From Prochlorococcus marinus XMU1410 (GTDB lineage: Bacteria; Cyanobacteriota; Cyanobacteriia; PCC-6307; Cyanobiaceae), in contig NZ_JAAORH010000001.1 in the NCBI RefSeq assembly GCF_017696085.1, forward strand, positions 496,001 through 560,000: a stretch of 64,000 nucleotides of DNA. Reading direction: 5' to 3'. The notes beneath the pieces were generated by a model that was not told the origin of the DNA, ran no database searches, and was given only the letters and a program-made list of their open reading frames with translations. This document shows positions 1 through 27,208 of this stretch, one piece after another. Both the position numbers and the translations under genes were made by a program. Numbering within the stretch: position 1 is the first letter of the stretch; every line of letters starts with the position of its first letter.

Positions 1-1410
1 AAGAAGTATGATGCAGGGGTAAAGGAGTACAGAGATACCTACTGGACTCCAGAATATGTACCCCTAGACACCGATTTACTAGCCTGTTTCAAATGTACAG
101 GTCAAGAAGGTGTTCCCAGAGAAGAAGTTGCAGCAGCTGTTGCCGCTGAATCTTCAACAGGTACTTGGTCAACAGTTTGGTCCGAGTTACTTACAGATTT
201 AGAATTTTATAAAGGACGTTGTTATCGAATCGAAGACGTTCCTGGAGATCCTGAAGCTTTTTATGCTTTTATTGCATATCCCTTAGATCTTTTTGAAGAA
301 GGTTCTATTACAAACGTATTAACATCTCTAGTAGGAAACGTTTTTGGATTTAAAGCTCTAAGACACTTACGTCTCGAAGATATTAGATTCCCAATCGCTT
401 TCATCAAAACTTGCGGCGGTCCACCAAATGGAATCGTAGTTGAAAGAGATCGTTTAAACAAATATGGAAGACCTCTACTTGGTTGTACCATTAAACCTAA
501 ATTAGGATTATCTGGTAAAAATTATGGTCGAGTTGTATATGAGTGTCTTAGAGGTGGTCTCGATTTAACGAAGGATGACGAGAATATAAACTCTCAGCCA
601 TTCCAACGTTGGAGAGAAAGATTTGAGTTTGTTGCAGAAGCAGTTAAGCTTGCTCAGCAGGAAACTGGCGAAGTTAAAGGTCACTACCTAAACTGTACTG
701 CCAACACTCCTGAAGAACTTTACGAAAGAGCTGAATTTGCAAAAGAGCTAGATATGCCAATCATCATGCATGATTATATAACTGGCGGATTTACTGCAAA
801 TACTGGATTAGCAAACTGGTGTCGTAAAAATGGCATGCTCCTACATATTCATAGAGCGATGCATGCTGTTATTGATAGACATCCAAAACACGGTATCCAT
901 TTCAGGGTTCTAGCAAAATGTTTGAGACTCTCCGGAGGCGATCAACTACATACTGGAACTGTTGTTGGAAAACTAGAAGGTGATCGTCAAACAACTCTTG
1001 GTTACATTGACAACTTAAGAGAGTCATTTGTTCCCGAGGATAGATCAAGAGGTAACTTCTTTGATCAAGATTGGGGTTCAATGCCAGGAGTATTTGCTGT
1101 CGCATCAGGTGGTATTCACGTATGGCATATGCCTGCACTCCTAGCGATTTTTGGAGATGATTCTTGTCTTCAGTTTGGTGGAGGAACACATGGTCATCCA
1201 TGGGGTTCAGCTGCTGGAGCTGCAGCCAACAGAGTTGCTTTAGAAGCTTGCGTAAAAGCACGTAATGCTGGTCGCGAAATCGAAAAAGAGAGTAGAGACA
1301 TTCTTATGGAAGCTGCTAAACACAGTCCTGAATTAGCTATCGCTCTTGAAACTTGGAAGGAAATTAAGTTTGAATTTGATACCGTCGATAAACTAGACGT
1401 TCAAGGTTAA
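1..1410 (+). CDS. rbcL: RuBisCO large subunit, form IA (5' end cut)
   Basis: Carboxylates or oxygenates ribulose-1,5-bisphosphate inside the carboxysome. The open frame enters at base 1 with [19 protein letters not shown] and runs to TAA at 1408-1410, giving 469 visible residues. Close homologues begin MSKKYDAG, so only about two codons appear to be missing. The active-site lysine in TIKPKLGLS lies near 493, and the carbamylated lysine in [11 protein letters not shown] is at 571-573. The motif [10 protein letters not shown] and the C-terminal phosphate loop HVWHMPAL are also intact. It is the first visible gene of the cso operon. In related genomes a csoS1 shell gene lies just upstream, outside this window. 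A hairpin follows the stop codon. Confidence 0.98.
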
Positions 1411-1425
1411 ACCAGATTTCAAAAA

Positions 1426-1447
1426 TTGAGGAGATTCTTCTCCTCAA
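1426..1447 (+). promoter_or_regulatory. Intercistronic hairpin between rbcL and rbcS
   Basis: A perfect inverted repeat has 9-bp arms, TTGAGGAGA and TCTCCTCAA, around a TTCT loop. It sits 15 bases after the rbcL stop and 54 bases before the rbcS start. No T-tract follows, so it is not a classic terminator. It could protect the rbcL 3' end or mark an RNA-processing point that sets the RbcL to RbcS ratio; that role is inference. Confidence 0.7.
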
Positions 1448-1501
1448 ACTTCCACAAATCTCGTTGTATTACGAGTAATTTCATTCACATTTAAATTAAT
1501 T

Positions 1502-1843
1502 ATGCCTTTCCAGAGCACAGTAGGCGACTATCAAACAGTTGCAACCCTGGAAACATTCGGTTTCTTACCACCGATGACCCAGGAGGAAATATACGATCAA
1601 ATTGCATACATAATTGCTCAAGGATGGAGTCCTGTTATTGAGCATGTTCATCCTAGTGGAAGTATGCAAACTTATTGGTCTTATTGGAAGCTCCCATTCT
1701 TTGGGGAAAAAGACCTTAACTTGGTTGTAAGTGAATTAGAGGCATGTCATAGAGCATACCCTGATCATCATGTAAGAATTATCGGATACGATGCTTACAC
1801 TCAAAGCCAAGGAACAGCTTTTGTAGTTTTCCAAGGACGTTAA
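1502..1843 (+). CDS. rbcS: RuBisCO small subunit, form IA
   Basis: Small subunit of the L8S8 RuBisCO, 113 aa, the usual size for carboxysomal cyanobacterial RbcS. It opens MPFQSTVGDYQTVATLETFGFLPP and carries the conserved WSPVIEHVHP, YWSYWKLPFFGE and HHVRIIGYDAYTQ blocks. It caps the octameric core of large subunits and helps recruitment by CsoS2, which in this family binds at the L-S interface. It starts 91 bases after rbcL on the same strand. An intrinsic terminator follows directly, so rbcL-rbcS may be expressed above the shell genes downstream. Confidence 0.98.
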   Translation: MPFQSTVGDYQTVATLETFGFLPPMTQEEIYDQIAYIIAQGWSPVIEHVHPSGSMQTYWSYWKLPFFGEKDLNLVVSELEACHRAYPDHHVRIIGYDAYTQSQGTAFVVFQGR

Positions 1844-1866
1844 ATCTACTTTTATGTAGTAAATAT

Positions 1867-1901
1867 CTTTCTCCAAAAAATATTTTTGGAGAAAGTTTTT
1901 T
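1867..1901 (+). terminator. Intrinsic terminator between rbcS and csoS2
   Basis: A perfect 13-bp stem, CTTTCTCCAAAAA pairing with TTTTTGGAGAAAG around a three-base ATA loop, is followed at once by six T residues (1896-1901). It lies 23 bases after the rbcS stop and 25 bases before the csoS2 ATG. This is the clearest terminator in the window. As csoS2 has no obvious room for its own promoter, partial read-through is the likely mode; that is inference. Confidence 0.85.
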
Positions 1902-1926
1902 CAAAAGAGTTTCACATTTGAAGATT

Positions 1927-4221
1927 ATGTCAAAAAAAACCAGTAGAGAGATTGCACTAGAAAGAAGAAAGGCGTTGAGTGATAGCGGTAAAAAAGCTGC
2001 TGCTTATTCTTCAACTACTAAAGATAGAGTTCGATCTTCTCAAGATATACAGATTTCTGGGACTCAGTCTTCTCCTAATAATCATAATATTTCTAAACCA
2101 GCTACAAAACATATTCCAAAAACTCAGGTAAACAGAAATTCTTCAACAACTTTATCTAGTAAAGAGTTAGTAATAGAGAGAAGAAAAGCAATGTCTACCC
2201 ATGGGAAATCAGCTATAACTTCATCCGATAGAACCCGTACTGATGTTAAAAAAGAAAGTCCTGTAAACACAGTTAAAACTTCCACAAGCAAAAATCAGGA
2301 AGTTCAAAACTCACATAATACAGAAATTAAAACATCAAAACCTAACGTTAAAAGAAGAATTAATCAGAAGAGAAAGCCTATTACTAATACAAGTAGAGAT
2401 ATTGTTTTAGCGAGAAGAGAAGCTCAATCTAAGCATGGTAAATCAGCAACTAAACAAAATACTAGTGCAGCTTCTTTAGCTAGAAGGGGAGACCCAGATT
2501 TAAGTAGTAGAGAAATTTCTCAGAGAGTGAGAGAGCTAAGAAGTAAAACTGGTGCCACAAGCAAAAAGGGTAATGGTAAATGTAGACCATGTGGTCCAAA
2601 TAAAAATGGAGCCAAACAAAATATTGCAGATGCTAGCTTGAAAGTTGGTAAAAGTGAAACTGATTCAGGTCAAATAGTTACTGGAACACAAGCTAATAGA
2701 TCTGTAAAAACTACAGGTAATGAAGCAAGTACATGCAGAACTGTCACTGGTACTCAATATATGGGAGCAGAAGTAGTTGACCAATTTTGTCAAGATAGAC
2801 CAAGTTATAAACAACCACTTAGATCTACTGTTACCTCTACAACTTCAGGTAATAAAGTAACCGGAAATGAAGTCGGTAGATCTGAGAGGGTCACAGGTGA
2901 TGAGCCAGGAACTTGTAAAAACCTTACAGGTACTGAATATGTATCTGCTAATCAATCACAGAAGTATTGTGGTGATGTTCCAAAAAATCCTTCAAAGGTT
3001 AAACATAGTACTACAACTGATGGATTAAAAGTATCTGGATCACTTCCAGGTAGATCAACTCTTGTTACTGGAGATGAATCAGGTTCTGGACATCAGTTAA
3101 CTGGAGATCAATATCTTGGATCAGAGCCAAATCCAAAAGGTAAAGCATTTGAAAAAGTAGGCAGTTACAACACTCTTAATGGGAATAATGTAACTGGTAC
3201 AGGTGTAGGAAGATCAGACCATATGACAGGCAATGAACATGGTAGTTGCAAGAATATAACTGGTGATGAGTACATAGGATCTCAACAATATGAGAAGTTC
3301 TGCGGCTCAAAACCAAAACCAGAAGCTAGAAAAGTAGGTTTAAGCCTTTCTTCAAAGTCAAATTTAATAAGCGGGACTATGACAGGAAGTTCAAAAATAG
3401 TAACTGGAGATGAACCAGGTTCATGCAAAGTGCTAACAGGAACACCATACGCAGGCTTAGATCAGATTAATGATAATTGTAGTACCGAGATTTCTGAAGA
3501 TATGAAATCCCGATCAACAGTTAATTCTGGAAATAATTCAAATGCCAGACTTACGGGACAACAACCAGGAATTGGAGGAGTAATGACAGGTGCTAAGAAA
3601 GGTGCTTGTAAAAACCTAACAGGGACTCCTTATGTTGGTGGAGATCAGTTCTCACAAGCTTGTGATAATCCTCCACATGATACTGCTTATGCGAATCCGG
3701 AAAAGTCAGCAGGTAAGTCTTGGAATGAATTCTCAGTTAAATCACCATCAAGAGACAAATATTCTGAAAAAAATACTCAAGGTGTTACGGGTAATGAATA
3801 TGAAAATGGTTCTAAGGTAACAGGACCTTTTGATATGGCAGTTGATAAGGTCACTGGCACTGAAAAATTTAGATTTGAACCAAATAAAAATATTACTTAT
3901 AAACAAAAAATGGAAATTGAAGAGGCAGACCGTGCTGCAAAGACACCAGAAAAAAGAGTCGCTTCAAGGATTACTGGAGAAGGACAATCAGTGGGAAACG
4001 TAACTGGTGATGATTGGGATCGCGGTGATAAGGTAACAGGCACAGAGGGAGCTTCTTCTAGAAAGCGAAATCCATCAAGAGCCGGATTCATGAGTGCAAT
4101 GCCCCCTATGGAAGTTAAAAGAAATGAAGAAACAGAAAAACCAGATTTCTTGATAACTGGATCTAGTGGGAATACTCGTGAAGGACAACTTGTTACCTTT
4201 TCAGGTGGTGCAAGAGGTTAA
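1927..4221 (+). CDS. csoS2: Carboxysome scaffold protein CsoS2
   Basis: Intrinsically disordered scaffold that links RuBisCO to the alpha-carboxysome shell, 764 aa from the ATG at 1927. A TTG at 1918 is an alternative start with a better-spaced AAAGAG, but homologues start MSKKTSREIALERRKA. The N-terminal quarter holds four basic repeats of the SREIALERRKA type, the RuBisCO-binding elements. The middle holds six repeats built on VTG(N/D)E, CKxLTGTxY and a closing Cys. The third repeat lacks its cysteines (GSGHQLTGDQY). The C-terminal part has degenerate VTG repeats and ends FSGGARG, the shell-anchoring tail. The reading frame is continuous, and I see no sign of the programmed frameshift known from Halothiobacillus. 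Confidence 0.96.
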   Translation: MSKKTSREIALERRKALSDSGKKAAAYSSTTKDRVRSSQDIQISGTQSSPNNHNISKPATKHIPKTQVNRNSSTTLSSKELVIERRKAMSTHGKSAITSSDRTRTDVKKESPVNTVKTSTSKNQEVQNSHNTEIKTSKPNVKRRINQKRKPITNTSRDIVLARREAQSKHGKSATKQNTSAASLARRGDPDLSSREISQRVRELRSKTGATSKKGNGKCRPCGPNKNGAKQNIADASLKVGKSETDSGQIVTGTQANRSVKTTGNEASTCRTVTGTQYMGAEVVDQFCQDRPSYKQPLRSTVTSTTSGNKVTGNEVGRSERVTGDEPGTCKNLTGTEYVSANQSQKYCGDVPKNPSKVKHSTTTDGLKVSGSLPGRSTLVTGDESGSGHQLTGDQYLGSEPNPKGKAFEKVGSYNTLNGNNVTGTGVGRSDHMTGNEHGSCKNITGDEYIGSQQYEKFCGSKPKPEARKVGLSLSSKSNLISGTMTGSSKIVTGDEPGSCKVLTGTPYAGLDQINDNCSTEISEDMKSRSTVNSGNNSNARLTGQQPGIGGVMTGAKKGACKNLTGTPYVGGDQFSQACDNPPHDTAYANPEKSAGKSWNEFSVKSPSRDKYSEKNTQGVTGNEYENGSKVTGPFDMAVDKVTGTEKFRFEPNKNITYKQKMEIEEADRAAKTPEKRVASRITGEGQSVGNVTGDDWDRGDKVTGTEGASSRKRNPSRAGFMSAMPPMEVKRNEETEKPDFLITGSSGNTREGQLVTFSGGARG

Positions 4222-4228
4222 CTAAATA

Positions 4229-5758
4229 ATGCCTTTAAGAGGACTGGCTAAAGCCAAGAACTTCACATTGGGGCCAACAGCTCCAATGAAAACTTTTACT
4301 GAAAATATCCATATACAAACTAAAGAATCAAATAATTTCCGAAATTCTGGAAAGTCTCATAAATTAACCAATAATATCCAAAATGAAAATCTATTTAGGT
4401 ATGAAAGCAAAATAAAAAGTGACTTTGATGAAATTGTTCCAACTCTCAAGGAAATTGCTCGAATTCAACATCACGAAGATTTTATAAATAAGGCACAGAA
4501 AATATCAAGAAAAAATTTGGGAATAGATTTACCCCTACATGTATTAGATAAATCTTGGGTTAAGCCTCTTGATATGAGAGCTTTATATGCATGGTGTGCT
4601 TTTAAACAGCATGACAAACTAAGCGACAATTTTTTTAACAATGATCCACTTGAAGGTGCTGCTGGAAGTAGGGATGCGGAAGACTTTGAAAAATTTCTCT
4701 TAGATTGTGGAATACATTTACTTGATATAACTCCCTGTTCAGATGGAAGATTAGCTCATTCAGTTGCTTATGTAATGAGAATACCTTTTAGTTCAGTAAG
4801 AAGAAGGTCCCATGCTGGAGCACTGTTTGATATTGAAAATACCGTTAATCGATGGGTGAAAACTGAACATAAAAGATATAGAGAGAATGTTCCTAATGAA
4901 GCTCATAAGGATACAAGGTACTTAAAAGTTGTGACTTATCACTTTAGTTCAGTAGATCCTTTGCATCAGGGATGCGCAGCTCATGGGAGTAATGATGAGT
5001 TAGCTGCAGCAGAAGGTAGAAATAAATTATATGCTTTCAAAGAGGCTGTAGAGAATAGCTTTTGCTGCGGAGCTTCAGTGGATTTAATGTTAATTGGACT
5101 TGATACAGACACTGATTCATTAAAAATACATTTATCAACTAGCGATGGAGGTATAGATTTAGAAAAAACTATTTCTACATTAGAAATTTATAATTCAACA
5201 ATAAATTTCTCAAGAGAGGATGCAGAAAGAGAAATTTGCCAAACAATTTCTAAGCAATCTTCAAAAGATAAACTCAGTGGACTGGAAAAATTTACGTATA
5301 AATTAATTGTCAATAATATTTCTCAAATTGATTATGTTAAGAGTTTTCATAATGGTTCTTATAAAGATATTGGACATGCAGAGAGGTTTATTGGAGTAGG
5401 TATAGGTTTCAAAGAAGTACATCTCAGAAATTTAACTTATTTTGCTCATTTAGATACAGTCGAAGAAGGGGCTCCAGATTTAGATGTAGGAGTGAAGATT
5501 TTTACTGGATTAAATGTTTCTCAAGATTTACCTATTCCGGTAGTAATAAGATTTGATTACTCTGGAAAAGTTCCGGGAGCAAAAGAGAGGGCAATAAATG
5601 ATTGTGAAAGAGTTAATAATGCGATATCAATTAGATATAAAAATTTAGTTGAGCAAGGTTTGTTACACACTTGCTCTACTATTAGAGATAGGGACAACAT
5701 TCATTCCGCTCAAATTATTGGAATGTCTTTAGATAAAAAAACAGAGGAGGCTCACTAA
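4229..5758 (+). CDS. csoSCA: Carboxysomal carbonic anhydrase CsoSCA (epsilon/beta-type)
   Basis: Dehydrates bicarbonate to CO2 inside the carboxysome, 509 aa. The zinc site is visible: Cys170 and the Asp172-Arg174 dyad in CSDGR, His238 in TYHFSSVD, and Cys249 in HQGCAAHG, matching the spacing in the Halothiobacillus enzyme. The first ~55 residues are basic, polar and low in complexity, as expected for the RuBisCO-binding tail of this family. The C-terminal third is the degenerate, catalytically silent repeat domain. The ATG is 7 bases after csoS2, preceded by AAGAGG at 4212-4217. It is also known as CsoS3. Confidence 0.96.
   Translation: MPLRGLAKAKNFTLGPTAPMKTFTENIHIQTKESNNFRNSGKSHKLTNNIQNENLFRYESKIKSDFDEIVPTLKEIARIQHHEDFINKAQKISRKNLGIDLPLHVLDKSWVKPLDMRALYAWCAFKQHDKLSDNFFNNDPLEGAAGSRDAEDFEKFLLDCGIHLLDITPCSDGRLAHSVAYVMRIPFSSVRRRSHAGALFDIENTVNRWVKTEHKRYRENVPNEAHKDTRYLKVVTYHFSSVDPLHQGCAAHGSNDELAAAEGRNKLYAFKEAVENSFCCGASVDLMLIGLDTDTDSLKIHLSTSDGGIDLEKTISTLEIYNSTINFSREDAEREICQTISKQSSKDKLSGLEKFTYKLIVNNISQIDYVKSFHNGSYKDIGHAERFIGVGIGFKEVHLRNLTYFAHLDTVEEGAPDLDVGVKIFTGLNVSQDLPIPVVIRFDYSGKVPGAKERAINDCERVNNAISIRYKNLVEQGLLHTCSTIRDRDNIHSAQIIGMSLDKKTEEAH
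5744..5750 (+). promoter_or_regulatory. Strong ribosome binding site of csoS4A
   Basis: GAGGAGG lies inside the last codons of csoSCA, 10 bases before the csoS4A ATG. Sites this close to consensus are uncommon elsewhere in the window. It fixes the csoS4A start and suggests translation independent of csoSCA, or reinitiation. Confidence 0.7.
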
Positions 5759-5760
5759 TT

Positions 5761-6012
5761 ATGTTAATTTGCAAGGTTGTAAAACCACTTGTTTCTACCA
5801 ATAGGATTCCTGGTTTTGAACATAAACATCTGCAGGTTGTATTAGATGGTTCTTCAAGTAAAGTTGCAGTTGATGCTGTTGGCTGTAAGCCAGGAGATTG
5901 GGTTATTTGTGTTGGAAGCTCTGCAGCTAGGGAAGCAGCGGGAAGTAAATCTTATCCAAGCGATTTAACGATTGTTGGAATAATTGATCATTGGGATCCT
6001 GACAAGTCATAA
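5761..6012 (+). CDS. csoS4A: Carboxysome pentameric vertex protein CsoS4A
   Basis: Small shell protein of the BMV (EutN/CcmL) family, 83 aa. Pentamers of it close the twelve vertices of the icosahedral shell. Recognisable features are the opening MLICKVVKPLVSTNR, the GCKPGDWVICVGSSAAREA loop and the closing TIVGIIDHWD. It starts only 2 bases after the csoSCA stop and is followed by its paralogue csoS4B. The two share about the same length and the same GSSAAR/GSAAR signature, so they are a tandem duplication within the family. Confidence 0.96.
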   Translation: MLICKVVKPLVSTNRIPGFEHKHLQVVLDGSSSKVAVDAVGCKPGDWVICVGSSAAREAAGSKSYPSDLTIVGIIDHWDPDKS

Positions 6013-6014
6013 AA

Positions 6015-6021
6015 AAGGAGG
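6015..6021 (+). promoter_or_regulatory. Strong ribosome binding site of csoS4B
   Basis: AAGGAGG stands 9 bases before GTG at 6031 and 18 bases before the first in-frame ATG at 6040. The spacing decides for the GTG start. Confidence 0.75.
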
Positions 6022-6030
6022 ATATAAATT

Positions 6031-6279
6031 GTGGAAATTATGAAGGTACTAGGAAGAATGGTATGCACTCAAAGAGTAGCTGGCTTAGGTTATATGAATT
6101 TACGAATTTTAGAAAATAATAAAGGAAAGAAAGTAGTTGCTGTAGATCCTGTTGGAGCAAGAGAAGGTAACTGGGTTTTTACTGCTAGTGGCTCTGCCGC
6201 TAGATTTGCATGCCCTAATCCAGAAGTTCAAACCGATTTAACAATTGGAGGTATTATTGATTATTGGGAGAGTGACTAA
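6031..6279 (+). CDS. csoS4B: Carboxysome pentameric vertex protein CsoS4B
   Basis: Second BMV-family vertex protein, 82 aa from a GTG start chosen because of the AAGGAGG site 9 bases upstream. It opens MEIMKVLGRMVCTQRVAG and shows the family loop AREGNWVFTASGSAARFA and the closing TIGGIIDYWE. With CsoS4A it caps the shell corners and limits CO2 leakage. The gap from csoS4A is 18 bases. This is the last shell gene of the cluster; a 74-base gap separates it from the assembly factor. Confidence 0.95.
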   Translation: MEIMKVLGRMVCTQRVAGLGYMNLRILENNKGKKVVAVDPVGAREGNWVFTASGSAARFACPNPEVQTDLTIGGIIDYWESD

Positions 6280-6353
6280 AAATTTTAACTTCAAAAATTT
6301 ATTGAGAAACTTTCTTGAAGGTATAGTGTAATTAGACTTGAATAAAGAATGTA

Positions 6354-6593
6354 ATGTGGAAAGAAAGAGAATCACCATTGAGGATTGAAAAAAGATTTGA
6401 ATTTGATCAATACTCAAAAATTAGTAAATTCATGGGGGAAATTGAGAAATTATGTAAAGAGAGGGATATTTATCCAAATATCAGCTTCGGTAAGAATTTT
6501 GTAAGTCTTTCAATATTTTTAGATAATAAAGAAATATCAGATAAGGAAAAAGACTTTTCAATAGATATTGATAAATTTTATTTAGAAGATTAG
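6354..6593 (+). CDS. Pterin-4a-carbinolamine dehydratase-like RuBisCO assembly factor (acRAF)
   Basis: A 79-aa protein of the PCD-like fold found next to alpha-carboxysome genes in many autotrophs, where it acts as a RuBisCO assembly factor rather than a pterin enzyme. Supporting features are the RFEFDQYSKISKFMGEIEKL opening helix, the short YPNISFGKNFVSLSIF strands and the acidic tail. The catalytic histidine-rich motif of true dehydratases is not seen. It is codirectional with the cso genes, 74 bases after csoS4B, with no clear Shine-Dalgarno. The family call rests on context as much as on sequence. Confidence 0.75.
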   Translation: MWKERESPLRIEKRFEFDQYSKISKFMGEIEKLCKERDIYPNISFGKNFVSLSIFLDNKEISDKEKDFSIDIDKFYLED

Positions 6594-6599
6594 TCCTTT

Positions 6600-6827
6600 T
6601 TAATAATTATTTGGCTTTGCAATATCTCTTTTGATTAAAGCCATTAAATATGTTGGAGCTTTATATCTACCAGGTAGACATCTATTTAAAGTTTCAAGAT
6701 GACTCCAACACACTGTCTTTTCTATATCTTTAACTGAGTTTCCTTTTAATATTAATAGTCTAAGAGCTTTGCAAAATAAAGGATAACCTGCTTCTAGTTC
6801 ATCTATATTAAGCTTTGCTGCTGACAT
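6600..6827 (-). CDS. DUF3136 family protein
   Basis: A 75-aa conserved picocyanobacterial protein of unknown function, convergent with the carboxysome operon and only 6 bases from its last gene. It is helical, with no signal peptide or membrane segment. The conserved block runs from DELEAGYPLFCKALRLL through VCWSHLETLNRCLPGRYK to YLMALIKRDI. The two Cys-containing helices and the GRYKAP turn suggest a small nucleic-acid or protein-binding domain, but no function can be assigned. The DUF3136 assignment is from memory of the family pattern. The strand means it is not part of the cso transcript. Confidence 0.7.
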   Translation of the reverse strand: MSAAKLNIDELEAGYPLFCKALRLLILKGNSVKDIEKTVCWSHLETLNRCLPGRYKAPTYLMALIKRDIAKPNNY

Positions 6828-6892
6828 AGATCAAAGATGAATTTTCAACTAATAATCTATACAACTATGGTGCAAAATTGGTTCATATTTCA

Positions 6893-6914
6893 AATTTCTA
6901 AATAATTAGAAATT
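6893..6914 (-). repeat. AT-rich hairpin at the end of ridA
   Basis: Perfect 9-bp arms AATTTCTAA and TTAGAAATT surround a 4-base loop and overlap the ridA stop codon. There is no T-tract, and the stem has one G-C pair per arm. It may be a weak transcript end or a protein-binding dyad. Confidence 0.4.
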
Positions 6915-7305
6915 AATCTAGAAATGCGACGCAATCTATTTCAATTGAAACTCCTTTTGGTAGAGATGAAACTTCTACACAAGCCCTTGCTGGAGGATTC
7001 TCTATATTAAAAAAATCACTATATATTTTATTGACAATTTGAAAATTACTTAAGTCCGTTAAGTAAATAGTTGTTTTTATTACATCCTCTATTTTGGCAC
7101 CACCAGCTTTAAGAACTTCTGTGAGATTTTTTAAAACTTGAATAGTTTCCTTCTCTATATCACCTAAACATGTTATTTCATTTAAAGCTGGGTCTAGAGC
7201 AATTTGACCAGAACAATAGATAAAATCCCCAGCTTTTATTGCTTGATTATAAGGTCCTACTGGAACTGGAGCATTTGATGTTTTAATTACTTTTTTGGGG
7301 GACAT
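6913..7305 (-). CDS. ridA: RidA family reactive intermediate deaminase
   Basis: Hydrolyses reactive enamine/imine intermediates produced by PLP enzymes such as threonine dehydratase, protecting the cell from 2-aminoacrylate damage. It is 130 aa, the standard length, and the fold works as a trimer. Signature blocks are NAPVPVGPYNQAIKAGDFIYCSG near the N-terminus and PPARACVEVSSLPKGVSIEID near the end, in which Arg107 is the substrate-carboxylate ligand. The ATG at 7303-7305 is followed by a normal MSPKKVIKT start. It lies 24 bases downstream of gloB on the same strand, so the two protective enzymes are probably cotranscribed. Confidence 0.95.
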   Translation of the reverse strand: MSPKKVIKTSNAPVPVGPYNQAIKAGDFIYCSGQIALDPALNEITCLGDIEKETIQVLKNLTEVLKAGGAKIEDVIKTTIYLTDLSNFQIVNKIYSDFFNIENPPARACVEVSSLPKGVSIEIDCVAFLD

Positions 7306-7329
7306 TAGTTTAAGAAGATACCTATCTAT

Positions 7330-8070
7330 TTAAACCCATAAATCTTTATTTGCTCTTAAAAAAGTAAATTCTTCTAAATTTTTTGCTCTTAAGAAAAGGT
7401 TTATTTTCATCTCTTCATCAAGTAAAAATGGAATTGTCAATTCATTAAGAGAAAGTTTTTTTTCAACTTCTGAAAGTTTATTTTTTATATCTTGATCTTT
7501 TGGCTTGAGATTCAATGCCCACAATATATTTGCTTTTGTATATTCATGTGCACAATATATGAGAGTATTTTTTGGCAAAGATTTGATTCTTTCTAGTGAG
7601 GAATACATTTGTTGATAAGTTCCATCAAAAATTCTTCCACAGCCTCCAGAAAATAATGTATCACCAATAAAAAGAACAGGATTTTCCCCATTCAAGAAGA
7701 AGGCAATATGTGAGCTTGTATGCCCTAATACTTCGATTATTTTTACTTCTTCACCTAAAATATTCAAAGTTTCTCCATCTTCTACAGATACATTTTGGAA
7801 AGGTATTCGCTTTTTTTCTTTGGAGGAAGCAATCACCTTTACATTTGGCCATCTTTCAATAAGAGACGTCGTCCCTCCAATATGATCGGAATGATGATGA
7901 GTTTGCAAAATAGCTTCTAAGTGAAAATTGTTTTCATTTATATATCTAACAACTGGTTCGTGAACAGATGGATCTACAACCACAACGGATTTATCTTTTA
8001 CCAACAACCAAATGACGTTATCACTTAAAACTCTAAGTCCGATTATATTTTGAGCTTTATTAAATTCCAT
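7330..8070 (-). CDS. gloB: Hydroxyacylglutathione hydrolase (glyoxalase II)
   Basis: Releases D-lactate and glutathione from S-lactoylglutathione, the second step of methylglyoxal detoxification. It is a metallo-beta-lactamase fold protein of 246 aa, with the binuclear metal motif THHHSDH at residues 57-63, a later GHTSSHIAF histidine, the [11 protein letters not shown] block, and CAHEYT near residue 180. I place the start at the ATG at 8068-8070 ([14 protein letters not shown]). The frame stays open for a further 57 codons, but those lie antisense to the start of hisG. The gene is divergent from hisG across 40 bases. Confidence 0.93.
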
Positions 8071-8110
8071 TGTTAAATTAGAATGAAGAATCCTTGGAAG
8101 AAATTGATCT

Positions 8111-8749
8111 ATGTTTACTATAGCTTTACCAAAAGGAGCTCTGCTAAAAGATTCAATTTCAACTTTTAAAAAAGCTGGGTTAGATTTCTCTGATGCGTTG
8201 GACGAAAATAATAGATCATTGACCTTTGAATCAAATTGCAAAAGGGCTAAAGCACTACTTGTAAGAAATGGAGACGTTCCTGTTTATGTAAGTTATGGTC
8301 AGGCTGATTTGGGTATTGTTGGTTATGACGTTTTACGAGAATCTGAATTAAAAGTCGCAAAGTTATTAGATTTAGGCTTTGGGGGTTGTCATATGTCGTT
8401 GGCGGTTAAGAAAAATAGTAATTATTCAAAACCAACTGATCTTCCAGCAAATTGTAAAGTAGCAAGTAAATTTATAAAAACAGCAAGATCTTATTTTGAA
8501 GAATTAAATATTCCTGTAGAAATAGTTCATTTAACAGGATCTGTAGAGCTTGGTCCTATTACAGGTATGGCAGAGGCAATAGTTGATTTGGTCGCAACCG
8601 GAAAGACTCTTAAAGAGAATGGTTTAATTAAGATAGATAATCTTTTTTACTCAACTGCAAGACTTATTGGAAATCCTTTATCGATGAGGTTAGATGATAA
8701 TCATCTCAGAGATACGATTTTATCAATAGAATCAACTAATGCTTTATAG
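8111..8749 (+). CDS. hisG: ATP phosphoribosyltransferase, short form
   Basis: Catalyses the first step of histidine biosynthesis, joining ATP and PRPP. At 212 aa this is the short form, lacking the C-terminal regulatory domain, and in known systems it needs HisZ as a partner; hisZ is not in this window. Visible blocks are [11 protein letters not shown] at the start, [14 protein letters not shown], and the PRPP-binding loop at [15 protein letters not shown]. It is the first gene of a probable run with the ABC exporter (12-base gap) and the GNAT gene. Another his gene, hisIE, is at 23.4 kb, so the pathway is scattered. Confidence 0.95.
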
Positions 8750-8761
8750 AAGATTAGCTAA

Positions 8762-10558
8762 ATGTTTTTTAAAGATTTTAGAAGGATTAAAAAGTTAGGT
8801 AAATATTTAACTAAAGATAAAAAAACAATTTATTTAATCTTAATAGTTTTGCTACCTGTCTCTTTCTCTGGAGCTATTCAGCCATTATTGGTAGGCCAAG
8901 CAATTACTATTCTTAAAAACGAAAGTACAGATGTTTGGCTAAGTAAAACTTTTTTTGGGCAGTCAATAAATGCCATAATCTTAACTTTATTCATAACTGT
9001 CCTATTTAGATTGGTTCTGCAAGGATACCAAACTTACAATATCCAAGCAGTGGGCCAACGTTTGACTGCAAGAATAAGAAGAGAACTTTTTGATCATTCA
9101 ATATCTTTATCTCTTAATTATCACGATAAAATGCCTGTAGGGAAATTACTAACGAGACTAACAAATGATGTTGATGCTTTAGCAGAGGTTTTTGGTAGTG
9201 GGGCAGTTGGAGTCATTGCTGACTTCGTCAGTCTGATAGTAATTTCCTTGACAATGCTGTCAATTGATAGAGGACTTGCGATTTTATTGCTTTTGACTCA
9301 AATCCCAGTTTCATATTTCATTATTTGGCTTCAAAAACGTTACAGAAGAGCCAATTATCAAGTTAGGGAAGAATTGTCTCAACTTAACTCTGATTTTCAA
9401 GAGAATCTTCAAGGTTTAGAAGTTGTTCAGATGTTCAGAAGAGAGGCTTTCAATAGCAAGAAATTTTCGAATACTGGAGTTGCTTATAAGAAAGCAGTAA
9501 ATGGAACAATATTTTATGACAGTAGTATTTCAGCATTTATAGAATGGATTTCTCTTGCCGCAGTTTCTTTGGTTTTGGCAGTTGGAGGATATCTTGTTAC
9601 TTCTGGAAATATTGGTTTAGGAACATTAACAACTTTTATCTTATATTCCCAAAGACTTTTTGAACCTTTAAGGCAGCTTGCAGAAAGATTTACTCAGATA
9701 CAGGGAGGTTTAACAGCTGTAGAAAGAATAAATGAATTATTGGATGAAGAAATACAGATTAAGGACTCAACTTCCGCGAAATATTTTTTAGAAAATACTA
9801 AAAATTTAAATAAGAAATTTAAGGGCAAAATTGAGTTCAAGAATGTAAATTTTTTCTATAACGAAGGAGAGCATATCATAAAAAATTTATCTTTCATTAT
9901 CAATCCAGGAGAGCATGTGGCTTTTGTAGGGCCAACTGGTTCAGGTAAAACTACCATAATTAGACTATTGTGTAGATTATATGAACCTCAATCAGGCCAG
10001 ATATTAATTGATGATATAGATATAGGAGATATTCCTATTGCAACACTTAGAAATATGTTGGGAGTGGTTTTGCAAGATACCTTTATCTTTAGTGGAAATG
10101 TCGCAGAAAATTTGAAACTAAATTCGAATTTAGACAATCTTGAACTAGAAAATCTTTGTAACGAATTAGGTCTAGATAATTTGTTGAAAAAATTACCACA
10201 AGGTTTGAACACCTTACTTAGAGAAAGAGGGGGGAATCTTTCTTCTGGAGAGAGACAACTTCTTTCAGTAGCTCGAGTAGCGATTAGAGATCCTATTGTT
10301 TTAATAATGGACGAAGCTACAGCGTTTATGGATCCGTCTACAGAGGCTACTTTGCAGAAAGATCTTGAGAGAATTCTGTCAAAAAGAACAGCATTAGTAA
10401 TAGCTCATAGATTAGCAACTATTGAAAGTTCTGATAAGATATTAGTCTTAAAAGGTGGAACATTAGTTGAAGAGGGAACACATAGTGAATTGAGACTGAA
10501 AAAGGGTTTATATTTTCAGCTTTCTGAGCTTCAACAAAAAGGATTTGCGAATTTTTAA
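8762..10558 (+). CDS. ABC transporter, fused permease and ATPase (exporter type)
   Basis: A half-transporter of the MsbA/multidrug type, 598 aa, expected to work as a homodimer in a membrane. Six hydrophobic segments occupy about residues 20-310, with the first near residues 22-42. The nucleotide-binding domain has Walker A GPTGSGKT at 390-397, the signature LSSGE at 493-497, Walker B VLIMDEA at 513-519 and an H-loop in VIAHRLAT. The substrate cannot be read from the sequence; lipid or peptide are possibilities. Its TAA overlaps the ATG of the next gene by one base, so the GNAT protein is translationally coupled. Confidence 0.92.
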   Translation: MFFKDFRRIKKLGKYLTKDKKTIYLILIVLLPVSFSGAIQPLLVGQAITILKNESTDVWLSKTFFGQSINAIILTLFITVLFRLVLQGYQTYNIQAVGQRLTARIRRELFDHSISLSLNYHDKMPVGKLLTRLTNDVDALAEVFGSGAVGVIADFVSLIVISLTMLSIDRGLAILLLLTQIPVSYFIIWLQKRYRRANYQVREELSQLNSDFQENLQGLEVVQMFRREAFNSKKFSNTGVAYKKAVNGTIFYDSSISAFIEWISLAAVSLVLAVGGYLVTSGNIGLGTLTTFILYSQRLFEPLRQLAERFTQIQGGLTAVERINELLDEEIQIKDSTSAKYFLENTKNLNKKFKGKIEFKNVNFFYNEGEHIIKNLSFIINPGEHVAFVGPTGSGKTTIIRLLCRLYEPQSGQILIDDIDIGDIPIATLRNMLGVVLQDTFIFSGNVAENLKLNSNLDNLELENLCNELGLDNLLKKLPQGLNTLLRERGGNLSSGERQLLSVARVAIRDPIVLIMDEATAFMDPSTEATLQKDLERILSKRTALVIAHRLATIESSDKILVLKGGTLVEEGTHSELRLKKGLYFQLSELQQKGFANF

Positions 10559-11088
10559 TGATTTTCAGGAACCAAGGATCGTTAATAAAAAAATCAAACA
10601 GCTTATCAAGAGATGAGCTGATAAATCTTTATGGTTTAAATTCTTACGAGTTCACTCAAACAAATAAAGAATCAATATTTGTATGTAGTAAAAATAAAGA
10701 TTTAGATCTTATAGAATTAGATCAACTTTTGCAAACTGTTGGTTGGAGTAGAAGACCTATAAGAAGAGTGAAAAGAGCTTTGGATTTCAGTATTTTGGTG
10801 GTTGGGTTATGGCTTCATGATGATAAATTCCCAAGATTAGTTGGATTCGCAAGATGCACTGGCGATGGAATTTTAGAAGCAACAGTTTGGGACGTGGCTA
10901 TTAACCCTGTCTATCAAGGGCTTGGATTGGGGAAAGAGTTAATGAAATATATCCTAAAAGAATTAAAAAATATTGGAATTTCCAAAGTAACCCTTTTTGC
11001 TGATGCTGAAGTGGTTTCGTTTTACAAAAAACAAGGTTGGATATTAGAACCAAGAGGCTCTAAATGCGCTTTCTGGTATGCAAATTAA
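10558..11088 (+). CDS. GNAT family N-acetyltransferase
   Basis: A 176-aa acetyl-CoA-dependent transferase. The first ~60 residues are a non-catalytic extension. The GNAT core follows, with the pyrophosphate-binding loop QGLGLGKEL at residues 120-128, after the beta-4 strand TVWDVAINPVY, and the closing VSFYKKQGW strand. The acceptor is unknown. It overlaps the ABC transporter stop by one base (TAATG), and its own stop overlaps the convergent glycosyltransferase gene by four bases. Similar cyanobacterial and plastid GNAT proteins exist, some of which acetylate protein lysines or N-termini. Confidence 0.88.
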   Translation: MIFRNQGSLIKKSNSLSRDELINLYGLNSYEFTQTNKESIFVCSKNKDLDLIELDQLLQTVGWSRRPIRRVKRALDFSILVVGLWLHDDKFPRLVGFARCTGDGILEATVWDVAINPVYQGLGLGKELMKYILKELKNIGISKVTLFADAEVVSFYKKQGWILEPRGSKCAFWYAN

Positions 11089-11771
11089 TCATTTTTATAG
11101 TAGTCAGAATATATAGATTCTAATGATTCGCCTTTTAACCATCTTCTTCTCAATTGCCAGTTCTTAATTGCTTGGAGGAAAATATTAGTTCTTTCCCATT
11201 TTCTTGAACTTATCAAAATATTTGAATTTAATTGTTTTAAATCTTTTTTATTCTTTAATCTCCTTAAAAAATCTACATCTTCCATCAAAGGTATCTTTCT
11301 AAAACCATTATTCTTAAAGTAGTTAGACCTATGTATTATTAAACCTTGATCACCATACGGTTGTTTAAAATATTTACTTCTAAAATTTACAAGAATTTCG
11401 AGGACTCTATAAATTATCTTTTTGTTATTTATTTTAAATTTAAAATAGTAAATAAAATTCTTGTTTTCCTTTAATAATGAATATGTTTTTCTAAACCAAT
11501 CATGAGCTAATTTTGTGTCTGCATGCAAAAAAATAAGCCATTCTCCTTTTGAATTTTTAGCTCCTATATCTAATTGTAAACCCCGATTCCTTTCTTGAGC
11601 TATAAATACTTTTGCTCCATAAATACTTGCTATATCAACAGTTTTATCTCTACTTCCACAATCAACAATTATAATTTCTCCCTCTTTCTGAATACTTGAT
11701 AAGTCTGAAAGCAATAATGGCAAATTTTTAGCTTCATTAATAGTTGGAATGATAATTGAGAATTTAGACAA
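11085..11771 (-). CDS. Family 2 glycosyltransferase, TIGR04283-like (arsenosugar-associated)
   Basis: A 228-aa GT-A fold glycosyltransferase. It opens FSIIIPTINEAKNLPLLLSDL and has the nucleotide-sugar segment VDCGSRDKTVD and the DxD equivalent in FLHADTKL. It keeps the family block PYGDQGLIIHRSNYF and PLMEDVDFLRRL. These patterns match the TIGR04283 group, which is named for its association with arsenosugar biosynthesis; the actual substrate here is not proved. It sits 5 bases downstream of the DUF2064-type partner gene, an arrangement that recurs in cyanobacteria. Its stop overlaps the GNAT gene by four bases. Confidence 0.85.
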   Translation of the reverse strand: MSKFSIIIPTINEAKNLPLLLSDLSSIQKEGEIIIVDCGSRDKTVDIASIYGAKVFIAQERNRGLQLDIGAKNSKGEWLIFLHADTKLAHDWFRKTYSLLKENKNFIYYFKFKINNKKIIYRVLEILVNFRSKYFKQPYGDQGLIIHRSNYFKNNGFRKIPLMEDVDFLRRLKNKKDLKQLNSNILISSRKWERTNIFLQAIKNWQLRRRWLKGESLESIYSDYYKND

Positions 11772-11776
11772 GTCGA

Positions 11777-12412
11777 TTACTTTCTATTTTCAATATCAAT
11801 AATTGTATCTATATCTATTTTTTTATCTAAAAACTTATATTTCAATTTTGTAAAAGCAAAATTATCAATTGTTTTTTGAAGAACATTTTCTGTACCCCAC
11901 TTAATATTTATAAAAGGTAAATACATATGTGAAGACATTATTTTTTCTGATAAACCAATAAGCCAATATCCTCCATCATTAGATGGTCCTAAAACAAGAT
12001 CATTGTGTTGAAGAAACTTTAGAGTATTCAATAAATCTTGATGGCATAAATCTGGAAGGTCAGTACCAATAAAAATAATATTTTTGATCTTTTCTTTAGT
12101 ACAAAATTTTTTGTTGATAATTATTTGCCTTTTCATTTTTTCTCCCAAGCAGCCTTTACCCTGTAAATTAAATTTTTTGATGCCTAATTCTCTAGACCAT
12201 CTTCTACAATTCCTTACCCCCAAACCAGATATAGCAATAGAAATATCAATTTGTTTAGTTTCCTGGAGAAATTTTGCGACTGAAATAGTGTGTTTGGTCA
12301 TCACACTTTGTACCTTTGCAGAATTAATTTTACCTATATCTTTTGATAATCTTGTTTTGCATCTTCCAAAACCATGCCATTTTGCCATGATAACAAGTAA
12401 TGCTTTATCCAA
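11777..12412 (-). CDS. TIGR04282-like glycosyltransferase (DUF2064)
   Basis: A 211-aa nucleotidyl/glycosyltransferase-like protein of the DUF2064 family. The motif GFGRCKTRL near residue 15 is the family's variant of the nucleotide-binding loop, and the GTDLPDLCHQDL and LGPSNDGGYWLIGL blocks are conserved. The start is probably a TTG, since the first beta strand (ALLVIMAKW) would be cut by using the ATG at codon 9. No Shine-Dalgarno is visible. It is the promoter-proximal member of the pair with the GT2 gene and lies divergent from dnaA across 170 bases. Confidence 0.83.
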   Translation of the reverse strand: MDKALLVIMAKWHGFGRCKTRLSKDIGKINSAKVQSVMTKHTISVAKFLQETKQIDISIAISGLGVRNCRRWSRELGIKKFNLQGKGCLGEKMKRQIIINKKFCTKEKIKNIIFIGTDLPDLCHQDLLNTLKFLQHNDLVLGPSNDGGYWLIGLSEKIMSSHMYLPFINIKWGTENVLQKTIDNFAFTKLKYKFLDKKIDIDTIIDIENRK

Positions 12413-24625: not shown

Positions 24626-27208
24626 TTAATCAACATTTATCTCTCCATTAACCAGATAAATATTAACCTCGTCTTTATTAAGGTAATGATTATTCAATAT
24701 ATTATTTGAAATTTTTGTCTCAATTTGTTTTTGAATAATTCTTTTTAAAGGCCTTGCACCAAAGGCATGATCGAAACTATTTTCGACAAGTTGGTTAATT
24801 GCTTCATCCGTAATTTTGAATTTTAAGTTTTTTTTGTTAAGTCTTTTTTCTAAATGTTGAAGCTGGATTTTTGCAATTTCTTTTATGTCATTTAATTCTA
24901 AATTATTAAAAATAACTATTTCATCAAGTCGATTTAAAAACTCAGGCTTGAAAAAATTTTTAATTTCATTATCTACAACTTTTTTAATTTCATTTGTATC
25001 TTCTTTTCTAATTGATAAATCATTTATTGATTGACTTCCTAAATTACTTGTGAGAACAATGATTGAATTTTTGAAATTGACTGTACGACCTTGACCATCA
25101 GTAATGATTCCATCATCAAGAACCTGTAAGAGAATATCTAAAATATCTTTGTGAGCTTTCTCTATTTCATCTAGGAGTATTAATGAATAAGGATTTTTGC
25201 GTACAGCTTCAGTTAGTTGACCGCCTGATTCGAAACCTAAATATCCAGGAGGCGCACCTATAATTTTGCTCACTGAATGCTTTTCCATATATTCAGACAT
25301 ATCCAGTCTTGTAATGGAAGAATTTGAATCGAATATTATTTTGGCTGTTACTTTACTTAGCTCTGTTTTCCCAACACCAGTTGGACCTAAAAAGAGAAAA
25401 CTGGCTAATGGCTTGCTTGGATCATTTAGACCAGTCCTTGATCTCTTAATGGAATCTGCAACAGCCCTAATTGCACTATCTTGACCAATAATTTTTTCTT
25501 TAAGGATTGACTCGAGGCTCAAGAGTTTATCTTTTTCTGACTGGTTTAAATTCTGTACTGGAATAGAGGTCCACTTTGAGACAACTTCTGCAATATCATC
25601 AAAAGTTACCTCTTGTCTTAAAAGACTTGTATCTCCATTTTTTTGGGAATTTACTAGAGACTCACTTTTTTCTTTCAATTTTTTTTGCAAAGAATTTAAA
25701 GTTCCAAATTCTAATTCTGCTGCTTTGTTGAGGTCAAAACTCCTTTTGGCTTGATCTATTTGCAATTGAACAGATTCAATTTCTTCTTTTATGGTGCTAA
25801 TCTCATCTATTTCATCTTTTTCTTTTTTCCATTGAGCGCCTAATTCTGCCTGTTTATCTTTAAGGGATAAAAGTTCATTATTGATTTTTTTTAATCTTTC
25901 TATAGAAAAATCATCCGTTTCTCTTTTTAAAGATAATTTTTCCATCTCAAACTGTAGAACTTTTCGATCAATTTCATCAATTTCTTCAGGTTTGGAAGTT
26001 ATGACCATATTTAATCTTGAGGCTGCTTCATCGATAAGATCTATTGCTTTGTCAGGAAGAAATCTATCGTTTATATATCTTTCGCTTAGGGTTGCAGCAG
26101 CAACTAAAGCATTATCAGAAATTCTCACACTATGATGAACTTCGTATCTTTCTCTCAATCCTCTTAAAATTGATACAGTATCATCAATTGAAGGAGCATC
26201 AACTTTTATCTTTTGAAATCTTCGTTCTAAAGCAGGATCTTTTTCTATATTTTGTTTATGTTCATTAATAGTTGTAGCACCAATACATCTAAGTTCTCCT
26301 CTCGCAAGCATTGGTTTTAATAGGTTGCTTGCATCTAAAGAACCTCCACTAGCGCCTGCACCAACTACTGTATGAATTTCATCAATAAAAAGAATAATCT
26401 TACCGTCTGATTCTTTCACTTTCTTTAGAATATTTTTTATTCTTTCTTCAAATTCTCCACGATATTTTGCTCCAGCTAAAAGTGAACCCATATCTAATGA
26501 AATTAGTTTCCTATCTTGTAGCGCAGAAGGTACATCGCCATTAATAATTCTTTGAGATAACCCTTCTACAATGGCTGTTTTGCCAACCCCAGGTTCTCCA
26601 ATAAGAACGGGATTATTTTTTGTTCTTCTACTCAATATTTGAATTGTTCTTCTAATCTCTTCATCCCTACCAATAACTGGGTCTAAAATCCCATCTCGTG
26701 CAGATTGAGTTAGATCAATACCATATTTTTCCAAAGACTCATCAGAACTATTAAATTCATTTTTTACTGCGGGATCTGACTTCATTTTCTTTATAATTTC
26801 AAGAAATTCTGGAATACCTTTTTGATTTAAAATTTGTAATCGATATTTATCATCATAAGTGAAACCGTAAACTAAGTGTTCTGTTGATATCACTACATCA
26901 TTTAAAGTATTTTTTATATCATTCGCCTTCAAAAATATTTTGTGAAGAGTATCACCAATATATAAATTATCTTGTTTATTTTTCATTTTTGCCTTCGCAT
27001 TTAATGAAAAGATTATTTCCCTCTCAATATGTTTTAAATTTACATTATTATTTTTTAAAATCTTTTTTGTAATATCGTCATCTTTTATAAGAGCTAATAA
27101 TAAATTATCAGAGTCTACGTTTTGTTGATAATTTTTATAAGCAATTTCTTTGGCAAAAATAAAATAGTTCCAAGCAGAATTTGAGAATTCGCTGGGAACT
27201 ATTTTCAT
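24626..27208 (-). CDS. clpB: ATP-dependent chaperone ClpB
   Basis: Hexameric disaggregase of 860 aa that works with DnaK to rescue aggregated proteins. The N-domain (1-150) is divergent. The first AAA+ module has Walker A GEPGVGKT at 204-211 and the [17 protein letters not shown] signature. A coiled-coil middle domain of about 120 residues follows near 400-530. The second module has GPTGVGKT near 607-614. No LGF/IGL-type ClpP-binding loop is evident, so it is ClpB rather than ClpA/C. It is 64 bases downstream of petE, and its divergent N-domain suggests the second clpB paralogue of picocyanobacteria. Confidence 0.93.

Follow-up and report, generated by a model that had tools for sequence, protein, structure and literature searches.

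The gap between rbcS and csoS2 in the carboxysome (cso) operon of Prochlorococcus marinus XMU1410 holds a hairpin, here called hairpin A, with a run of T residues abutting its 3' side. A hairpin is kept at this place across the Cyanobiaceae; its stem covaries between types, and in the high-light lineage a U-tract directly adjoins it. Hairpin A is probably, if only narrowly so, the conserved 3'-end hairpin of the rbcLS message, serving in the high-light lineage as a partial intrinsic terminator that lowers the transcripts of csoS2 and of the minor shell genes. We infer the following course of events. Hairpin A would form the 3' end of the csoS1-rbcL-rbcS message, its stem folding when RNA polymerase exits rbcS; in high-light Prochlorococcus the adjoining U-tract would cause a fraction of the polymerases to terminate, and those reading through would transcribe csoS2, csoS3 and csoS4A/B. 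A single promoter could in this way yield scaffold and minor shell transcripts below the level of the RuBisCO transcript, and the hairpin remaining at the 3' end should protect the rbcLS RNA as well.

Hairpin A lies at the boundary between cargo and scaffold genes

The window, that is, the whole stretch of 64,000 nucleotides that was analyzed, starts inside rbcL and continues with rbcS, csoS2 and tightly packed frames at 4229, 5761 and 6031 (Table 1). Assignment of these three frames as csoS3 and csoS4A/B fits the gene order given in PMC4499774. The original prediction described an intrinsic terminator between rbcS and csoS2, with a perfect 13-bp stem, a 3-base loop and six T residues, 25 bases upstream of the csoS2 ATG (1927). 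All of this is found at 1867-1901, within a gap of 83 nt; the arms are CTTTCTCCAAAAA and TTTTTGGAGAAAG, the last T is followed by 25 bases before the ATG and, by gene order, the element falls precisely between the cargo and scaffold genes. A TTG in frame with csoS2 at 1918, upstream of the ATG, is not conserved. The weak hairpin that follows hairpin A is a possible counterpart, by putative homology, of a second hairpin of relatives (hairpin B, see below); RNAalifold did not recover it in the high-light alignment.

Table 1. Positions in the window of hairpin A, its flanking genes and the hairpins nearby
Feature	Position	Strand	Description
First rbcL-rbcS hairpin	1426..1447	+	9 bp; + strand lacks a T tract
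Second rbcL-rbcS hairpin	1460..1475	+	5 bp
rbcS	1502..1843	+	Gene upstream of hairpin A; homologs annotated as RuBisCO small subunit
Hairpin A	1867..1895	+	Perfect 13-bp stem, loop ATA, 24 nt after the rbcS stop codon
T6 tract (TTTTTT)	1896..1901	+	Abuts the 3' side of hairpin A
Weak hairpin (UUUUCAAA/UUUGAAGA)	1898..1924	+	Would absorb the end of the T tract; just upstream of the csoS2 ATG
csoS2	1927..4221	+	Gene downstream of hairpin A; gene order matches annotated homologs

The terminator-like anatomy of the element would also agree with near-complete termination, csoS2 and the genes after it then depending on a separate promoter within the gap or within rbcS. We consider this quite improbable. 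A scan for sigma-70-like sites, limited to promoters of that type, found none on the + strand before 4348, and so does not indicate a separate csoS2 promoter. RNA-seq of MED4 places the cso cluster on its operon map (PMC3898218), and for Acidithiobacillus ferrooxidans RT-PCR primed in cbbL1 and csoS2 served to demonstrate a single transcript (PMC2942843). Counting against our own reading, the MED4 map, as its excerpted text describes it, joins genes that are not separated by a sharp drop in coverage (PMC3898218); should rbcS and csoS2 be joined in it, a strong terminator would be unlikely.

Folding stability and terminator score

Intrinsic (Rho-independent) terminators consist of a stable stem-loop, usually G-C-rich, with a U-tract directly after the stem. 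In the window the T6 tract adjoins the stem as this anatomy requires; the stem itself, with G-C at 4 of its 13 pairs, is A-T rich. The segment 1840-1930 folds with an energy of -20.9 kcal/mol (z of -3.6; none of 200 dinucleotide shuffles was equally stable), and the rbcS-csoS2 gap folded alone has a z of -3.95. The claim that hairpin A is the strongest RNA element in the window fails by folding energy, since at -13.9 kcal/mol it ranks 58th among single local hairpins (span of at most 50, both strands). Its terminator score d, which combines folding energy and U-tract, is 20.4 and is the maximum of the window. A higher score was present somewhere in two of four shuffles of the 64 kb, nine hairpins outscore hairpin A in 120 kb sampled from this genome, and the score alone can be reached by chance. 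What goes beyond chance is the position of hairpin A in so short a gap together with its conservation, and it is the conservation that carries the evidence.

A terminator scan of 1-12000 on both strands gave 10 sites against 5.3 expected (sd 2.4), hairpin A having the longest stem among them. With crude ORF calling, d exceeded 0 at convergent gene ends versus co-directional gaps in 1/19 versus 1/35 cases (genome G000), 3/30 versus 1/28 (G034) and 0/8 versus 0/27 (G039). At 27161-27205 the window also holds a long hairpin followed by a T-run on either strand, which resembles a terminator whichever way it is read (d of 1.9 on the + strand and 16.5 on the - strand). At the gathering score, the sole Rfam match in the whole window is a tRNA, and hairpin A was accordingly rejected as an Rfam-listed element. 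It was also rejected as a repeated hairpin, the pattern CTTTCTCC(3-22)GGAGAAAG occurring at one site of the genome.

The stem and its U-tract are kept within the high-light type

The closest loci (L001-L081) are the best 80 of 437 relatives together with the window's own genome, a selection that is weighted towards close Prochlorococcus and contains many identical gaps. A CTTTCTC stem is present in 78 of these 81; two others (L075 and L077) have a different hairpin at the place of hairpin A, and L079 is truncated by the end of its contig. Loss of the stem in close relatives, a point raised with the original prediction, was not seen. The high-light type, as we use the term, comprises these 78 loci and nine from the wider Cyanobiaceae search, 87 in all, and includes MIT 9107, MIT 9302 and MIT 9401; this and the other type labels (HL, LLI, LL, mSyn and FW) were assigned here from the sequence of the stem. 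At least four T residues (4-8) immediately follow the stem in 81 of the 87. The upper stem and loop are variable, and L056 has changes from A-T to G-C on both arms. RNAalifold predicted seven pairs from 18 high-light gaps, only one of which has a two-sided change, so that covariation is little informative within this type. Four rows (L024, L045, L073 and L076) were added by hand to the high-light alignment (A3). In five loci (L011, L049, L058, L060 and L061) a GTTTTTTAAAGA-like unit is repeated after hairpin A, and the U-tract occurs twice.

The base of the high-light stem, exactly CTTTCTCC/GGAGAAAG, is identical letter for letter in 82 of the 87 loci, which exceeds what pairing demands; by contrast, across 76 distinct rbcS sequences the third codon position is variable in 77 of 114 cases. 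Such invariance could point to structures that act on csoS2 translation, or that bind a small RNA or a protein, and not on transcription or decay. The weak hairpin directly upstream of the csoS2 start codon would suit this explanation, as would the finding that Yfr10 pulls down csoS1 and csoS2 of MED4 and, according to the excerpted text, no other gene of the operon (PMC6778093). Nevertheless, we hold it to be quite improbable, about as much so as near-complete termination, because the 3' end of hairpin A lies 31 nt upstream of the csoS2 ATG, Rfam gave nothing for it at the gathering score, and the gap contains no complement of at least 7 bases to the Yfr1/Yfr10 motif. A Yfr1/Yfr10 site in the gap was rejected on this last ground.

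Within 1-6400, complements of that length to the motif occur at 1427 and 3575. The former, TGAGGAG, is contained in the 5' arm of the first rbcL-rbcS hairpin, the 3' arm of which resembles the motif itself. The latter, GAGGAGT at 3575-3581, is within csoS2 and, judged by its letters, is a candidate site for the Yfr10 contact reported for MED4 csoS2.

In the wider family the hairpin is kept and its stem sequence changes

RbcS is present in 182 of the 201 Cyanobiaceae genomes searched. The full set of 190 loci consists of L001-L081, 29 further loci from the RbcS search and 80 regions of others. In 174 of the 190 a hairpin could be assigned to one of five stem types (CTTTCTCC, ATAGCCTCGA, TTAGCC(C/T)(C/T)(G/A)A, GAGCCCTGA and GGTCCCGG), at a median position, by type, of 18-22 nt after the rbcS stop. 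Since the assignment chose the arms as paired (pairs 3-8 by construction), pair counts across types are illustrative only, and in the GC-rich freshwater gaps hairpins arise easily by chance. The 16 unassigned loci are the truncated L079, L174 and 14 in which the first 110 nt contain a different hairpin (-14.0 to -24.3 kcal/mol). L174 is a Cyanobiaceae region with rbcS for which a simple search over 500 nt yielded no csoS2 start. Stems of the form AGCC..GGCT, as in the relatives, are common genome-wide, at 101, 35, 34, 32 and 172 places in G034, G039, G056, G110 and G064, respectively; the reversed-pattern control gave 23, 4, 2, 2 and 30.

For alignment, 57 gaps were drawn at random within types. 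The all-type alignment (A1; 56 rows, L173 being omitted) has the high-light 3' arms misaligned. A second alignment (A2), made without regard to structure, omits L090, L099 and 14 high-light rows and keeps 40 non-high-light rows, from which RNAalifold predicted hairpin A and hairpin B. In pair statistics that are biased towards the structure, which was derived from this very alignment of related sequences, 96.1% of the A2 cells are paired, against 42-58% with sliding partners; two-sided changes affect 9 of 13 pairs, a figure matched by 4 of 500 shuffles, and the covariation score was reached by none of 500. By hairpin, the two-sided changes fall at 4 of the 8 pairs of hairpin A (two pairs being invariant) and at all 5 of hairpin B. 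L090 and L099, both low-light, have short gaps lacking the hairpin B region. The compensatory changes named in the original prediction are therefore found between types in the wider family, and are scarce within the high-light type.

The quality of the U-tract differs between types. It has a median score of 4.59 for the high-light type, compared with 3.02, 2.88, 2.52 and 2.12 for the remaining types. Immediately after the stem, TTT stands in 30 of 35 distinct high-light rows, whereas in 79 of 81 distinct rows of the other types it begins at least 2 bases past the stem or is absent. Counted over the first eight bases, T residues are similarly numerous in the high-light, LLI and marine Synechococcus types (median of 5), and the tails of the relatives are thus U-rich, yet offset or interrupted. 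Hairpin A of G039 has a d of -5.7; that of G034 is absent from a list of hairpins with d > -20, and 120 kb of G034 contain 12 other hairpins with scores of 25 to 60. Terminator-like anatomy, with the U-tract directly adjoining the stem, thus belongs to the high-light type; in the other types the U-tract is offset, interrupted or missing. As the hairpin is kept there all the same, efficient termination is not the feature conserved in the family, nor need termination be a family-wide function.

Other gaps of the operon

Immediately before the window begins, the csoS1-rbcL gap has one hairpin, of -6.3 kcal/mol; the rbcL-rbcS gap has two (Table 1). A z of -3 or lower was obtained for 86 of 148 distinct rbcS-csoS2 gaps, against 2 of 34 control gaps (co-directional, 60-130 nt, from three genomes, with simple ORF calling and 80 shuffles each); in the marine Synechococcus type only 3 of 15 rbcS-csoS2 gaps reach it. 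The rbcL-rbcS gaps, with 127 of 155, are at least as structured, which suggests a role for hairpins in this operon other than termination. These conserved hairpins, at least as strong, were left out of the original prediction, the overall interpretation of which is supported in part.

The two gaps differ in what follows the hairpin. In the high-light type a run of at least four T residues within 12 nt past the hairpin is found in 35 of 35 hairpin A rows and in 7 of 72 rbcL-rbcS gaps, distinctness being judged by arms and tail for the former and by whole sequence for the latter, here and in the counts that follow. The corresponding figures are 13/48 and 6/49 in the low-light loci, and 12/14 and 10/16 in the marine Synechococcus type, in which the two gaps show no clear difference. 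The contrast does not hold across all types; in the high-light lineage it is the best argument for termination, which in the rbcL-rbcS gap would spoil the ratio of the subunits.

The observations outside the high-light type bring forward RNA processing and stabilization without termination, the chief rival explanation, possible if doubtful. The message would be cut in the linker past hairpin A, hairpin A would shield rbcLS from 3' exonucleases, and the downstream part would be less stable or less translated. Consistent with this, hairpin A persists family-wide even beside a poor U-tract; the 40 aligned non-high-light gaps show covariation in hairpin A, a pyrimidine-rich linker and hairpin B; hairpins also occur in other gaps preceding abundant cistrons, whereas csoS2 and csoS3 are only 7 nt apart; and hairpin A is a stem-loop at the 3' end of an abundant cistron, as such elements require. 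There is, in addition, a precedent in a scaffolded complex, the cellulosome (PMC4423207). Processing has, however, no need of an adjoining U-tract, which the high-light type nonetheless keeps in nearly all of its loci, and the short low-light gaps of L090 and L099 do without the hairpin B region. Furthermore, distal genes of MED4 operons are generally less abundant and yet more slowly decaying, 5 of 9 CO2-fixation genes falling in a cluster of such genes, although csoS2 is not named in the excerpted text (PMC2897979). Since the distal genes are rarer but more stable, lower transcription fits better than faster decay downstream. Processing with stabilization may be the older role, and could act together with termination.

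Partial termination at hairpin A in the high-light lineage is favoured by a stem with an adjoining U-tract that has the top score of the window and is kept in the type, by the contrast in T-runs, and by a place that, judged by gene order, separates cargo from scaffold genes within one operon; the A-T-rich stem, a score reachable by chance and the poor U-tract of the other types speak against it. The protein ratio comes from another organism: in Halothiobacillus carboxysomes rubisco, CsoSCA, CsoS2A and CsoS2B stand at 13:1:2:2.5 (PMC12918739). The top transcripts of MIT9301 include rbcL, and a common expression cluster takes in rbcLS and csoS2 (PMC10294614). In Synechococcus PCC 7002, transcripts with a hairpin and U-tract are longer-lived (PMC7406221).

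Outside the cyanobacteria, two plasmid-borne proteobacterial cso operons were compared, and one of the two has a hairpin. The cbbS-csoS2 gap of Candidatus Thiodictyon syntrophicum, of 226 nt, folds at -123 kcal/mol (z of -6.35), whereas that of Nitrobacter hamburgensis is unremarkable (z of -0.11). Very strong nested inverted repeats lie between cbbS and csoS2 on the Thiodictyon plasmid (L212:3846-4071). Tentatively, and with some doubt, we put forward a more general proposal: the cyanobacterial alpha-carboxysome operon may set the proportions of cargo, scaffold and shell in its RNA, through a conserved series of hairpins after csoS1, rbcL and rbcS, and not after csoS2. The boundary hairpin would be a processing or stabilizing element in Synechococcus and the low-light types and a true partial terminator with a U-tract in high-light Prochlorococcus, and a gammaproteobacterial cso operon would fill the same boundary with an unrelated strong hairpin.

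Significance and comparison with known systems

RuBisCO packaging in Prochlorococcus and marine Synechococcus bears on how carbon is fixed in the ocean. Being conserved and placed between cargo and scaffold genes, the element is a direct candidate for the cause of unequal cargo, scaffold and shell output, and its natural variants, with strong or weak U-tracts, form a series in which its effect could be measured. Among the literature matches listed, none points by its title to the rbcS-csoS2 hairpin, and in the excerpted text of those matches the unequal output of cargo, scaffold and shell from one operon is left unexplained for cyanobacterial alpha-carboxysomes. For Halothiobacillus, Cai et al. 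in 2008 reportedly proposed that secondary structures of the cso operon help to set unequal protein levels. If so, the concept as such has a precedent; the organism is a different one, and the likeness concerns the idea.

The principle, that internal terminators or stem-loop-guided processing set ratios, is known from clostridia, while this place for it is, as far as the excerpted sources go, apparently undescribed. In the ABC-importer operons of Ruminiclostridium cellulolyticum, internal intrinsic terminators set the subunit ratios, their partial efficiency having been established by experiment (PMC9045158). There, as here, a stem-loop follows the gene of an abundant subunit inside an operon, and the quality of the U-tract is variable; premature termination lowers the downstream genes, as we propose for the cso operon, and a U content below the canonical recalls the non-high-light types. 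Efficiency was measured in that case and is inferred in ours, for another operon in another phylum. The cip-cel operon of the cellulosome is subject to selective RNA processing and stabilization (PMC4423207). Its processing sites were mapped, whereas those of the cso operon are hypothetical, and hairpin A of the high-light type has a U-tract that processing would not need. In both cases, the operon encodes a scaffolded protein complex and its abundant cistrons carry stem-loops at their 3' ends.
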